Source of the DNA: Methanocella paludicola SANAE
GTDB lineage: Archaea > Halobacteriota > Methanocellia > Methanocellales > Methanocellaceae
NCBI RefSeq assembly: GCF_000011005.1
Contig: NC_013665.1
Coordinates: 2,209,501 to 2,273,500 of the forward strand
Length of the DNA: 64,000 bases
Direction: 5' to 3'
Position 1 is the stretch's first letter. The number at the start of each line of letters is the position of its first letter. Of the stretch, positions 18,445 through 21,957 are shown piece by piece. Made by a program: the position numbers and the translations under genes. A model generated the notes under the pieces. It had not been told where the DNA came from and ran no database searches. It was given only the letters and a program-made list of their open reading frames with translations.

Positions 18445-19194
18445 ATGACCGACATTCCCGAGGATCATCCCCGTTACAAGTCGCTATTGACGAGGGAGCT
18501 ACTGGTTAAGGGCGTGAAGGACGGCATCACGAGCATGCAGGGCCTGATCGCGCAGGGCCGTGGCGAGGCTTTCGATTATTTGCTTGGCGAGCGTACTACG
18601 GGCTCTGCCGCAGAGGCGGAGAGGGTAGCAGTGGCTATGATGCTGCTGGCCAACAGGCCTGTTATTTCGGTCAACGGCAATGCTGCCGCACTCGTGTCCG
18701 AGGAGCTCTGCGAGCTCTCAAAAGCGCTCGACGCTCCGCTCGAGGTGAACCTGTTCCACCGCACCGAGGAAAGGGTCGGGAAGATCATCAATTTATTAAG
18801 ATCGAAGGGAGCCTCCACGGTATACGGCGATAATCCCGACAAGCTCATACCGGGACTATCCCACGACAGGGCAAAAGCGGCCTCGAAAGGCATTTACGCA
18901 GCGGACGTCGTTCTCGTCCCGCTGGAGGACGGCGACAGGTGCGAGGCGCTTGTCAAGATGGGAAAGAGAGTCATTGTCATAGACTTAAATCCGCTGTCCA
19001 GGTCAGCCCGGACGGCCACAGTGGCCATCGTCGACAACATCGTGCGGGCCGTGCCCAACATGACGGCCATGGCCAGGGAGATGAAAAACCAGTCTCCCGC
19101 AGCCCTCGAAGATATCGTAAAAGGGTTCGGCAACGAAAAGGCGCTGGCACAGGCGCTTGACGAAATGATGGATAACGTTAAAAACGCTAAATGA
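18445..19194 (+). CDS. 4-phosphopantoate--beta-alanine ligase (archaeal phosphopantothenate synthetase)
   Basis: A 249-residue DUF137-family enzyme that joins 4-phosphopantoate and beta-alanine with ATP, the archaeal route to coenzyme A. Features are DHPRYKSLLTRELLVKGVKDG near the N-terminus, TGSAAEAERVAVAM, FHRTEERV with catalytic-type residues, and IDLNPLSRSARTATVAIVDN at about 180-200. It has the normal length and no pantoate kinase neighbour. It lies 42 bases after gnd. Confidence 0.92.
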   Translation: MTDIPEDHPRYKSLLTRELLVKGVKDGITSMQGLIAQGRGEAFDYLLGERTTGSAAEAERVAVAMMLLANRPVISVNGNAAALVSEELCELSKALDAPLEVNLFHRTEERVGKIINLLRSKGASTVYGDNPDKLIPGLSHDRAKAASKGIYAADVVLVPLEDGDRCEALVKMGKRVIVIDLNPLSRSARTATVAIVDNIVRAVPNMTAMAREMKNQSPAALEDIVKGFGNEKALAQALDEMMDNVKNAK

Positions 19195-19296
19195 GCAAGT
19201 CTATCGTTCAAAATAAATTTTTTAGCCAGCATTTGCCGCATATGCGATTACGAAACATTATTATATTGTAAAATGAATTGTTTTTGGTGATTTATT

Positions 19297-19602
19297 TTGG
19301 AACAGCAAGTGGAACGTGCCGTTGACACGACATTCGGGAGCGCTGAAAAGGTAAAGGTCCAGACCGCCGACGCGCTGGAGGAAGCGGCGCGGAAGCTCAG
19401 AGAGATGAGCATGACTGCGAAGGGCGAAGACATCAAGGCCGTCCTTAACGAGACCGGCGTGAAGATCGATAAGCTAAAGGCCGAGATGGGCCAGAAAGTC
19501 GAGCCGGTGCATGACTTCGTCGTAGAGCACCCCTTCATGTCCATCGCAATAGCGGCCGGCGCAGGCCTGCTCATCGGCGCGCTGCTGGTCAGGCGCGACT
19601 AG
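19297..19602 (+). CDS. YqjD/ElaB-like DUF883 membrane-anchored protein
   Basis: A 101-residue protein: a long amphipathic helix with many Lys, Glu and Ala residues (about 1-75) and a single C-terminal hydrophobic anchor, SIAIAAGAGLLIGALLV, followed by RRD. This is the layout of bacterial YqjD/ElaB proteins, which tether ribosomes to the inner membrane in stationary phase; that role is only inferred here. TTG 19297 lies 30 bases after a TATA-like ATTATATTG. It is first in a three-gene unit. Confidence 0.75.
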   Translation: MEQQVERAVDTTFGSAEKVKVQTADALEEAARKLREMSMTAKGEDIKAVLNETGVKIDKLKAEMGQKVEPVHDFVVEHPFMSIAIAAGAGLLIGALLVRRD

Positions 19603-19612
19603 AGGTGTGACG

Positions 19613-19975
19613 TTGCCGGACGACGCCGCGGCGGGACAGGAAAGGCCCTCGATGGAGGCCGAGTTCTCGAGCCTGATGCAGAACATCGACCTCTACCTGA
19701 GGCAGAAGACCGACCTGTATATTCAACACTATCTACTCGACCCCCTTGACTTTGTCCTGAGGCAGGTCATCTATATCTCCGTGGTCGCTTCGCTTCTCGT
19801 CGCGGGCACGCTCGCTATTACCATCGGCGTCATCCTCTTTGTCTCGACCCTCATACCCCTCTGGACGGCGCTGCTGATCTGCGGCGTAGCGTCTTTACTG
19901 CTGGCCATGGGGCTCGCGTATTTCATGTTCGCCCGCAAGCTGGTGCTTAAGACGCCTAAGACGGAGGCAGCCTGA
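19613..19975 (+). CDS. YqjE-like two-helix membrane protein
   Basis: About 120 residues with two adjacent transmembrane helices (about 50-72 and 80-105) after an amphipathic, Gln-rich N-terminus; the end is positively charged (ARKLVLKTPKTEAA). The profile matches YqjE/holin-superfamily-like proteins that accompany YqjD in bacteria. TTG 19613 is preferred because AGAGGTG lies five bases upstream; GTG 19607 would be inside that site. Its stop overlaps the next start (TGATG). Confidence 0.72.
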   Translation: MPDDAAAGQERPSMEAEFSSLMQNIDLYLRQKTDLYIQHYLLDPLDFVLRQVIYISVVASLLVAGTLAITIGVILFVSTLIPLWTALLICGVASLLLAMGLAYFMFARKLVLKTPKTEAA

Positions 19976-20403
19976 TGCTGCCAATACCTAAAAAAGCCGT
20001 TACCGAAGAGGACGTGAAGGCCACCGAGGCCCGGCTGGCCGCGTCCTTTAACGGCTTGAAAACGTCGATCACGAATATCCCGTCCGATATGGCCCGGCCT
20101 ATCACGGATACCGTACGGGAGCACCCGTACCTGACTGTCGCGGCTGCCGCTGCCGGCGGGTTCGTCCTGTATAGCCTGCTTAACGTGCTTATCCCGAGGA
20201 CGAAGGTCGTCGAGCGTGAGGTCACGGTGCAGCCCCATGTAGAGGTCAAGGAGCAGCGTGCGCCTTCACTCGCCTCGAAGCTGCTCTCTGAGGCCATTCC
20301 GTTCCTGACCCCGTATATTACGGGATATGTGCAGAACGAGCTGTCCCGTATAATCTCCAAGAAGAGCGAGCCTTCGGAAGACGTTGTGAATGTAAAAGCC
20401 TAG
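19975..20403 (+). CDS. membrane protein of the YqjD-YqjE-like unit
   Basis: A 142-residue protein: helical N-terminus, VREHPYLTVAAAAAGGFVLYSLL as the only membrane span (about 48-70), then a charged segment and a second amphipathic helical part (LASKLLSEAIPFLTPYITGYVQNELS). The EHPY motif before the span recalls EHPF in the first gene, so the two may be paralogous in part. Its stop TAG shares the four bases CTAG with the convergent larC1 stop. Confidence 0.7.
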   Translation: MLPIPKKAVTEEDVKATEARLAASFNGLKTSITNIPSDMARPITDTVREHPYLTVAAAAAGGFVLYSLLNVLIPRTKVVEREVTVQPHVEVKEQRAPSLASKLLSEAIPFLTPYITGYVQNELSRIISKKSEPSEDVVNVKA

Positions 20404-21137
20404 GCGTGGCCTTTATGGGCCTTCTGTATTTTTTCCCCGAGGACGGCCCGTAGCAGGTTGGGCGCCTCGAGGTCTTTTGTGCCGGCGCCATAGCCGGTTT
20501 TTTCCGATTTCATGTGGGGCATAGGGCCGTATCCCGCACATAGCTCGGCGAGGATGGCGGCGCCTGTCGGCGTGACGAGCTCAGCCTGGATGCCCGTGGA
20601 ATAGATGGATGCCCCTTTTAGTAATTCGAGTGTGGCAGGGGCGGGGACCGGCAGGAGGCCGTGAGAGGTTTTTACGAATCCGCTCCCTACGTTTACCGGG
20701 GATGAATACAGGGTTTCTGCTCCCGACGCTTTGTAACAAATAGCCGCGCCCACGACGTCCGCTATCGTGTCGAGGGCTCCAACTTCGTGGAAGTGGACCT
20801 TTTCGATATCGATGCCGTGTACGGTTGCCTCCGCTTCCCCGAGACGCCTGAATATCCTGCCCGCGGTCTGCTTGATGTCGCTCTCGAGGGCGCTGCCGTC
20901 GATGATATCCAGGATCTCGGAGAGGTGCCTTTCGTGGGCCGTATCGGGGATGACCACGTCCACTTTAGTGCCCGCTATACCGTGCTTGCGTACTTTGTTG
21001 ATATTGAGCTGTATGTCGAGGCCCAGCCCGTAGAGTCCCGAGGCGAGCGTATCTATAGGGATTCCCATGTCGACCATGGCCCCGAGGAACATGTCGCCGC
21101 TGATGCCCGAAAAGCAGTCTAAGTAGATGATCTTCAT
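20400..21137 (-). CDS. larC: nickel-pincer cofactor biosynthesis protein LarC, N-terminal half only (LarC1)
   Basis: A 245-residue DUF111 protein matching the N-terminal domain of LarC, the CTP-dependent cyclometallase that inserts nickel into the pincer nucleotide. Family segments are IYLDCFSGISGDMFLGAM at the start, VHFHEVGALDTIADVVG near 115-131, and TPTGAAILAELC. Complete LarC is about 400 residues; the C-terminal LarC2 domain is missing, and nothing resembling it follows the stop in any frame, since the convergent membrane gene begins there. The upstream neighbour two bases away is larE. Confidence 0.9.
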   Translation of the reverse strand: MKIIYLDCFSGISGDMFLGAMVDMGIPIDTLASGLYGLGLDIQLNINKVRKHGIAGTKVDVVIPDTAHERHLSEILDIIDGSALESDIKQTAGRIFRRLGEAEATVHGIDIEKVHFHEVGALDTIADVVGAAICYKASGAETLYSSPVNVGSGFVKTSHGLLPVPAPATLELLKGASIYSTGIQAELVTPTGAAILAELCAGYGPMPHMKSEKTGYGAGTKDLEAPNLLRAVLGEKIQKAHKGHA

Positions 21138-21138
21138 T

Positions 21139-21957
21139 TTAGCGCCCTTTCAGTATTTCGTTCATGCTGCCGCTTCGGAAACCTTGCAGGTCGAGGGCTA
21201 CATAAGTGAACCCGGCGTTTTTTACTTTCTCGACGATCTCTGCCCTATATTTTATAGCGTCTGAAAGCTCCTTTTCCGGTACTTCGATACGTGCGAGATC
21301 TCCATGGTACCTTACCCTGAGCTGTGTAAAGCCGAAGCAGTGCAGCGCCTGCTCCGCATCCCTGACCATATGTATCTTATCCTTCGTAATGGCTTCGCCA
21401 TACGGTATGCGCGTGGCGATGCAGGCCTGGGAGGGGCGGCCCCATGTGGGCAGGCCCATCTCCCTCGATAGTTCCCTTATTTCTGATTTGTATAATTGTG
21501 CTTCCCGAAGCGGGCTGCGGATGCCTAGCTCCTTCATCGCCCTCTCGCCGGGTCGGTAATCGGCCTCGTCGTCCCGGTTGGAGCCGTCTGCGATGTATGC
21601 CAGACTCAGCTTTTCTTTTTCTTCTATGAGTTTCGAGAAGCGGCCCTTTTTGCAGACGTAGCAGCGCTCGGGCGTGTTGGCGATGAACTCGGCGTTCTCC
21701 ATCTCGGAGGACGTTACGATGACGTGCCTTACGCCGAGGTCTTTCGCGATGGATTCTGCCAGGTCGAAGTCCTCGGGGGATAGTATCTCGGAGACGGCCG
21801 TGGCTGCCGCCACTTTTTGGGTGCCGAGCGTATCCACTGCACACTTGAGGAGGAAGGATGAGTCTACGCCGCCCGAGAAGGCGACGAGCACGCTGCCCAT
21901 CTCTGTCAGTATGCGCCTGAGGTCCCACAATTTGCGTTCCAGAGCCGGCTCCATCAT
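21139..21957 (-). CDS. larE: LarE, ATP-dependent sacrificial sulfur transferase
   Basis: A 272-residue PP-loop enzyme that adenylates the pincer precursor and donates sulfur from its own cysteine. The PP-loop FSGGVDSSFL is near residues 27-36, ERCYVCKKGRF near 94-104, and GRPSQACIATRIPYG holds the cysteine aligned with the sacrificial Cys176 of the Lactobacillus enzyme. ATG 21957 follows AAGGGTG; ATG 21969 is an alternative. It forms an operon with larC1; larB and larA are not in the window. Confidence 0.92.
   Translation of the reverse strand: MMEPALERKLWDLRRILTEMGSVLVAFSGGVDSSFLLKCAVDTLGTQKVAAATAVSEILSPEDFDLAESIAKDLGVRHVIVTSSEMENAEFIANTPERCYVCKKGRFSKLIEEKEKLSLAYIADGSNRDDEADYRPGERAMKELGIRSPLREAQLYKSEIRELSREMGLPTWGRPSQACIATRIPYGEAITKDKIHMVRDAEQALHCFGFTQLRVRYHGDLARIEVPEKELSDAIKYRAEIVEKVKNAGFTYVALDLQGFRSGSMNEILKGR

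Follow-up and report, generated by a model that had tools for sequence, protein, structure and literature searches.

The methanogenic archaeon Methanocella paludicola SANAE appears to divide the nickel insertase LarC between two proteins: a LarC1-only protein encoded beside larE, and a second, full-length LarC encoded elsewhere in the genome, in which LarC2 is intact and the LarC1 half has degenerated. From the comparison of sequences, we consider it fairly probable (roughly 0.6) that the LarC1 half of the former and the LarC2 half of the latter cooperate in trans as a split nickel insertase. According to this model, the larE-larC1 pair, apparently of bacterial type, would supply sulfur insertion and the LarC1 half, and the LarC2 half would be provided by the native archaeal LarC encoded next to a CDC48-family ATPase gene, whose own LarC1 region is without most of its conserved His, Asp and Glu residues. 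Together with LarB, these proteins would supply a LarA of the malate racemase type with its nickel-pincer nucleotide. The CTP-dependent step presumably belongs to LarC2 and the handling of nickel to residues of LarC1; to our knowledge, the separate contributions of LarC1 and LarC2 to building the cofactor are not settled. LarC performs a CTP-dependent cytidinylylation of the cofactor precursor, with an anhydride that is hydrolysed after nickel entry (PMC11796402).

The window, i.e., the whole stretch of 64,000 nucleotides that was analysed, covers positions 2,209,501-2,273,500 of a genome consisting of a single contig of 2,957,635 bases. Within it, larE is located directly upstream of larC1, both genes lying on the minus strand and separated by a 1-base gap (Table 1). 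The larC1 product matches positions 1-238 of the 375 positions of PF01969 in a profile search (306.4 bits) and scores 227.5 bits with TIGR00299, for which the cut-off is 90. The protein thus contains the LarC1 domain and no LarC2, as an earlier note on this DNA had recognised when it described larE together with a LarC devoid of its C-terminal domain. Because the only LarC2 of the genome sits in the second protein, the window gene is filed here as LarC1 only and not as LarC. The neighbouring product is a LarE by its TIGR00268 score, which is over the cut-off, by its SGGXDS loop and by the arrangement of Cys103, Cys106 and Cys183. This type of loop and the CXXC-C motif, to which a [4Fe-4S] role is attached, are defined in PMC9283937.

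Table 1. Features of the larE-larC1 locus (window coordinates) and of the other lar genes of the genome.
Feature	Coordinates	Strand	Evidence
larC1 (245 aa), LarC1 half of the nickel insertase LarC as a protein by itself	20400..21137	-	PF01969, TIGR00299
LarC1 motif DCFSGISGDM, residues 7-16	21090..21119	-	translation; alignment blocks
LarC1 motif HFHEVGA, residues 115-121	20775..20795	-	translation; alignment blocks
LarC1 last 10 residues KIQKAHKGHA, two-His tail at the point where LarC2 would begin	20403..20432	-	translation
larE, ATP-dependent sulfur insertase, 276 aa	21139..21969	-	TIGR00268, 332.1 bits, cut-off 150
LarE ATP-binding loop SGGVDS, residues 32-37	21859..21876	-	translation
LarE CXXC (Cys103, Cys106) of the CXXC-C motif	21652..21663	-	cysteine positions
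LarE Cys183, third cysteine of CXXC-C	21421..21423	-	cysteine positions
Convergent small gene, outside the system, stop overlapping the larC1 stop codon by 4 bases	19975..20403	+	ORF list
Second LarC, 402 aa, full-length	L004:5492-6700 (match C1:2,774,524-2,775,648)		PF01969, NF052512
LarB	L007:1489-2268		NF033503, 258.1 bits, cut-off 175
LarA, malate racemase LarAH6 family	in L005:3674-7565 gene row		NF052593, 565.8 bits, cut-off 500

The end of larC1 deserves attention, since the earlier note placed there a clean end of the domain, the start of a neighbouring gene and no LarC2 frame, even by frameshift. The first of these statements agrees with the AlphaFold2 model of the LarC1-only protein (mean pLDDT 93.9, pTM 0.92; residues 241-245, mean pLDDT 54), in which the domain is not cut short; such a confidently predicted fold suggests that LarC1 is plausibly able to stand alone. 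The neighbouring gene does not start at this point; it converges on larC1 and ends on its stop codon, which leaves no room for LarC2. Finally, a tblastn search with 108 LarC2 halves against window positions 18,500-21,000 gave scattered weak matches only, the best with E 0.003 and 24 bits when composition correction and the low-complexity filter were off, and in the control search 106 of the 108 halves matched the true LarC2 locus. Together with the whole-genome six-frame PF01969 search, which also shows no LarC2 nearby, this rules out a frameshift that would restore LarC2, an outcome that the earlier note had set against its own reading. A short tail bearing histidines ends three of the four LarC1-only proteins of the class Methanocellia (the window protein and those of loci L016-L018 compared) and is absent in genome G002; this tail could bind nickel.

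The six-frame search returned a single other PF01969 match in the genome, 0.54 Mb from the window larC1. The protein encoded there contains LarC2, scoring 101.9 bits with NF052512 (cut-off 50), and its LarC1 half reaches 73 bits with TIGR00299, below the cut-off of 90. In the alignment blocks, this half reads DPFCGATEEM in place of DCFSGISGDM, and HFHEVGA is missing. The gene is divergent from that of the CDC48-family ATPase (1029 bits, cut-off 802.65). No other LarC2 is hidden in the genome according to NF052512 at E<=10, which gives one match, and the proposal that LarC2 lies elsewhere is supported by this single domain within the second LarC. The earlier note had also considered that a complete larC in another place would undo its reading: a full-length one does exist, but its LarC1 half is degenerate. 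LarC is not to be called either 'missing' or 'complete' from domain matches alone.

The remainder of the pathway is also present. No LarE other than that of the window exceeds the cut-off in the genome, and the search for LarC2-like, LarB and LarA genes that the earlier note had proposed finds all three away from the window. Its statement that there is no larB or larA holds at the locus and fails for the genome as a whole, from which the absence of either gene is ruled out by family matches over the cut-offs. LarA contains the motifs GSHR and HYFAGYSGGAK, whose histidines we take, from our reading of the 6d6z alignment, to be the two catalytic ones. The roles of these two histidines are treated in PMC11770544. 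Within its gene row, larA is preceded by genes for a GlcD-like dehydrogenase, with a score under the curated cut-off for GlcD, and for an Fe-S protein; the Fe-S gene adjoins larA in three relatives of the class too. Oxidoreductases and dehydrogenases of COG0247 and COG0277 are reported in the vicinity of several LarA groups (PMC7583248). Going by its gene content, the row might possibly serve hydroxyacid oxidation in this hydrogenotrophic methanogen.

A division of labour between the two proteins is suggested by the reciprocal retention of conserved positions. In a reference set of 104 fused LarCs (30 archaeal and 74 bacterial), 31 LarC1 positions, including 9 His, Asp or Glu, and 15 LarC2 positions are near-invariant, defined as 95% conservation. 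The window protein keeps all 31 LarC1 positions and all 9 His/Asp/Glu, and the second LarC keeps 14 of the 31 (1 of the 9) together with 15/15 LarC2 positions (Fisher p 7e-7 between the two proteins and 2e-4 within the second LarC). The same pattern is found in the three other genomes of the class, where 31, 30 and 31 of the 31 LarC1 positions are kept in the LarC1-only proteins, and 15, 15 and 17 in the second LarCs, whose LarC2 positions are 15/15. Canonical LarC1 is favoured by the way in which the references were chosen, the archaeal ones for the highest PF01969 scores and the bacterial ones by matching two LarC1 peptide patterns; when the set is restricted to archaea, 25 of 27 LarC1 positions are kept in the window protein, and 15 of 27, along with 11 of 12 LarC2 positions, in the second LarC. 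Full retention in the window protein and loss of over half of the positions in the second LarC are what is expected if the LarC1 function moved rather than vanished, and the lost residues would then be those that handle the metal. The degenerate half, which is 54-67% identical between class genomes, shows dN/dS values of 0.38, 0.40 and 0.24 for three pairs with dS near 1 (of the remaining three pairs, two have a saturated dS), and the LarC1-only genes show 0.18-0.33 for three pairs with dS below 1.5. By its identities and ratios, the degenerate LarC1 half is still constrained and not freely decaying.

The gene set is conserved in the class, as is seen in the comparison with other genomes that the earlier note had recommended. 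All four class genomes, which represent three genera, encode a LarC1-only protein and a fused LarC (in G001, PF01969 reports positions 122-375 only of the latter), as well as LarB and LarA over their cut-offs. In each of them, larE and larC1 are adjacent and accompanied by one and the same set of three small genes and an Lhr-like helicase gene, and the convergent small gene is kept. LarC2 is carried by the fused LarC only in the window genome (G000) and in G001; an extra standalone LarC2 is present in G002 and G003. PF01969 matches occur in 268 of the 294 genomes sampled from the phylum; among the matches listed, which are the best-scoring ones, all those outside the class are near full length. 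Among the best 80 of at least 562 relatives found in genome_contigs, none of them archaeal by title, there are 74 fused LarCs, 3 divided between reading frames, 2 consisting of LarC1 only and 1 that reaches the end of its contig. The two LarC1-only genes belong to an uncultured Geobacter (L194:2245-4843), where the gene comes after larE and larB, and to Bryobacterales F-183 (L122:3812-4714); neither fetched stretch contains LarC2. An operon of larE, larB and a LarC1-only gene is also found in another archaeal family, f10 (G012, L067:2267-4940), and this genome also encodes a fused LarC beside CDC48.

Phylogenetic trees give the two proteins different neighbours. In the LarC1 tree with bacteria (24 archaeal rows, 4 Methanocellia and 32 of 80 bacterial ones, the latter chosen by LarC1 similarity), all four LarC1-only proteins branch with the bacterial rows, with support of 99/98 (37 rows, including the LarC1-only protein of G012). 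The four LarE proteins group with five bacterial LarE (96/95) in a tree that includes 19 bacterial loci of the 80, those with LarE in reach. For the LarC2 half of the second LarC, the neighbours are archaeal (99/88; 26 rows from archaea versus 26 from bacteria, the latter out of 28 picked LarC2 halves), and the gene of this LarC adjoins that of CDC48, an arrangement shared with other archaeal families. AU tests, which reject none of the alternative placements, give p 0.156 for LarC1-only proteins placed with archaea, 0.246 for LarC1-only proteins placed with bacteria excluding the G012 row, and 0.359 for the LarC2 of the second LarC placed with bacteria. Altogether, a bacterial-side LarC1 and LarE and an archaeal LarC2 beside CDC48 suggest uptake, which the AU tests do not prove: a bacterial larE-larC would have been taken up, its LarC2 lost, and the native LarE and LarC1 functions displaced. 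In a more specific version, the bacterial LarC1, arriving with LarE, would have taken the place of its native counterpart in trans and would attach to the archaeal LarC, whose own LarC1 half would serve only as a scaffold beside the working LarC2. The enzyme would then be a chimera, part bacterial and part archaeal; we regard this as possible, at less than even odds.

When archaea only are considered, the LarC1-only proteins group with that of G012 (98/92) and then near the LarC1 of methanogen paralogues (85/89). The archaea-only trees were built without L031, L049, duplicate Methanocellia loci and the too-short LarC1 halves of L060, L061 and L062 and LarC2 halves of L039 and L064, and ten near-copies were thinned; L049 is LarB and not LarC, L031 and L039 are in doubtful frames, and L039 lies on a very long branch of the LarC1 tree. 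In the LarB tree, made without nine archaeal near-copies, Methanocellia LarB forms a separate long branch; it might be a third bacterial-type gene. The methanogen paralogues, those encoded next to a protein of about 600 aa, were considered as orthologues of the second LarC and rejected, the LarC2 of the latter being outside their clade and its gene beside CDC48. In many methanogens, this protein of about 600 aa is encoded directly beside a second LarC or a standalone LarC2 (L054-L060, L062, L065, L066, L070-L072, L091, L092). It has no convincing Pfam or NCBIfam match in the three tested, and its identification as GGGtGRT was rejected, no model of either collection matching convincingly.

A partly similar situation is found in another archaeal family. 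In genus g17 of family f12, each of the three two-copy genomes examined (G018, G036, G043; loci L094-L097, L064, L084) encodes two LarCs. In the first, the LarC1 motif set is broken and LarC2 is mostly kept but altered at 2-3 otherwise conserved positions; in the other, the LarC1 set is intact except for D15N and LarC2 ends prematurely, at a point common to all three genomes. Reciprocity is weaker here, and it may be that the whole of the first copy is in decay; in another f12 genus, G051 has a single fused LarC in which one motif histidine is changed. A counter-case is provided by 11 genomes of family f5 (g7, g42, g46; including L068 and L069), which have LarC2 only, with an N-terminal part that is unrelated or unrecognisable, and no LarC1. 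LarE is over the cut-off in all 11 (the g42 matches end early) and LarB in 10, and at L068 and L069, the two loci fetched, LarC2 is still beside CDC48. From this gene content, either LarC1 would be dispensable in f5 or the pathways have changed, and it follows that LarC1 may not always be needed.

These f5 genomes give some weight to the possibility that the second LarC is enough alone and that the LarC1-only protein is an accessory, e.g., a nickel carrier helped by its His tail. We consider this doubtful: the tail does occur in three of the four Methanocellia proteins, but the G002 protein is without it, and the window protein keeps every near-invariant LarC1 position where the second LarC has lost over half. 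It is improbable, and more clearly so, that the LarC1-only protein and LarE perform another metal or sulfur insertion instead of making the nickel-pincer cofactor, the second option of the earlier note, which is not needed here. The gene pair indeed sits apart from those of LarA and LarB, and LarC1-only genes also occur at L122 and L194, among the best 80 of at least 562 relatives, and in G012; against this, the LarC1-only gene comes after larE and larB in both G012 and L194, and LarA would otherwise be without a sulfur insertase, the window LarE being the only one over the cut-off.

Half of the usual protein is missing from the window gene product, and 74 of those best 80 relatives are fused, so one might think of a fragment in decay or of a mistake in the assembly. 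Such an origin has very little to recommend it when the same architecture and locus are found in four genomes of three genera, when all 31 conserved positions are retained under the low dN/dS given above, and when the predicted fold is confident with no LarC2 remnant nearby. The reading that accommodates these observations best in our estimation is that of two LarC halves cooperating from separate proteins.

Compared with known systems, the window LarC1 resembles LarC (PF01969; PDB sets 12bi and 6bwo), matching residues 19-254 of the 414 of 12bi_D (E 5e-70), and the second LarC matches residues 18-407 of the same chain (E 6e-37). Unlike the ordinary fused LarC, the working halves here would be on two proteins. 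LarC of L. plantarum is made by frameshifting, and two-frame LarCs (L163, L171, L195) likewise encode the two halves in different frames; in those loci, however, the LarC2 frame overlaps LarC1, whereas in M. paludicola LarC2 is far away on the chromosome and fused to a degenerate LarC1. LarA resembles the nickel-dependent malate racemase LarAH6/MAR2 and matches 6d6z (Mar2) with E 1e-123, but its gene is apart from larB, larC and larE and follows those of the GlcD-like dehydrogenase and the Fe-S protein; its substrate class is a prediction. LarE, by its TIGR00268 score and by its SGGVDS loop and CXXC-C motif, the features described in PMC9283937, is like the [4Fe-4S]-type LarE of Thermotoga maritima, and differs from it in having a LarC1-only gene as its partner. 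For a LarE with a CXXC-C motif, 'sacrificial' would be an unsuitable family name.

A structural search with the LarC1 model gave no Foldseek match at E<=0.001 and no VIA match at Z>=5 (library to April 2026), and has no bearing on novelty since 12bi was not among the matches. The full-text literature search found no report of a LarC split in trans, a weak negative that covers titles and abstract starts; the combinations of nickel-pincer with Methanocella and of lactate racemase with larC and frameshift had no match in it. Two genomics papers, one dealing with Lactobacillus casei and the other with butyrate producers, each name LarC1 and LarC2 once.

If LarC is indeed divided in this way, its half-reactions would be located on two proteins that could be purified and mixed. 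With each half intact on a different protein, and LarC1 naturally disabled in the carrier of LarC2, the roles of the two halves could be tested by such mixing. In evolutionary terms, the arrangement suggests that a metal-insertion enzyme may be replaced domain by domain between bacteria and archaea.
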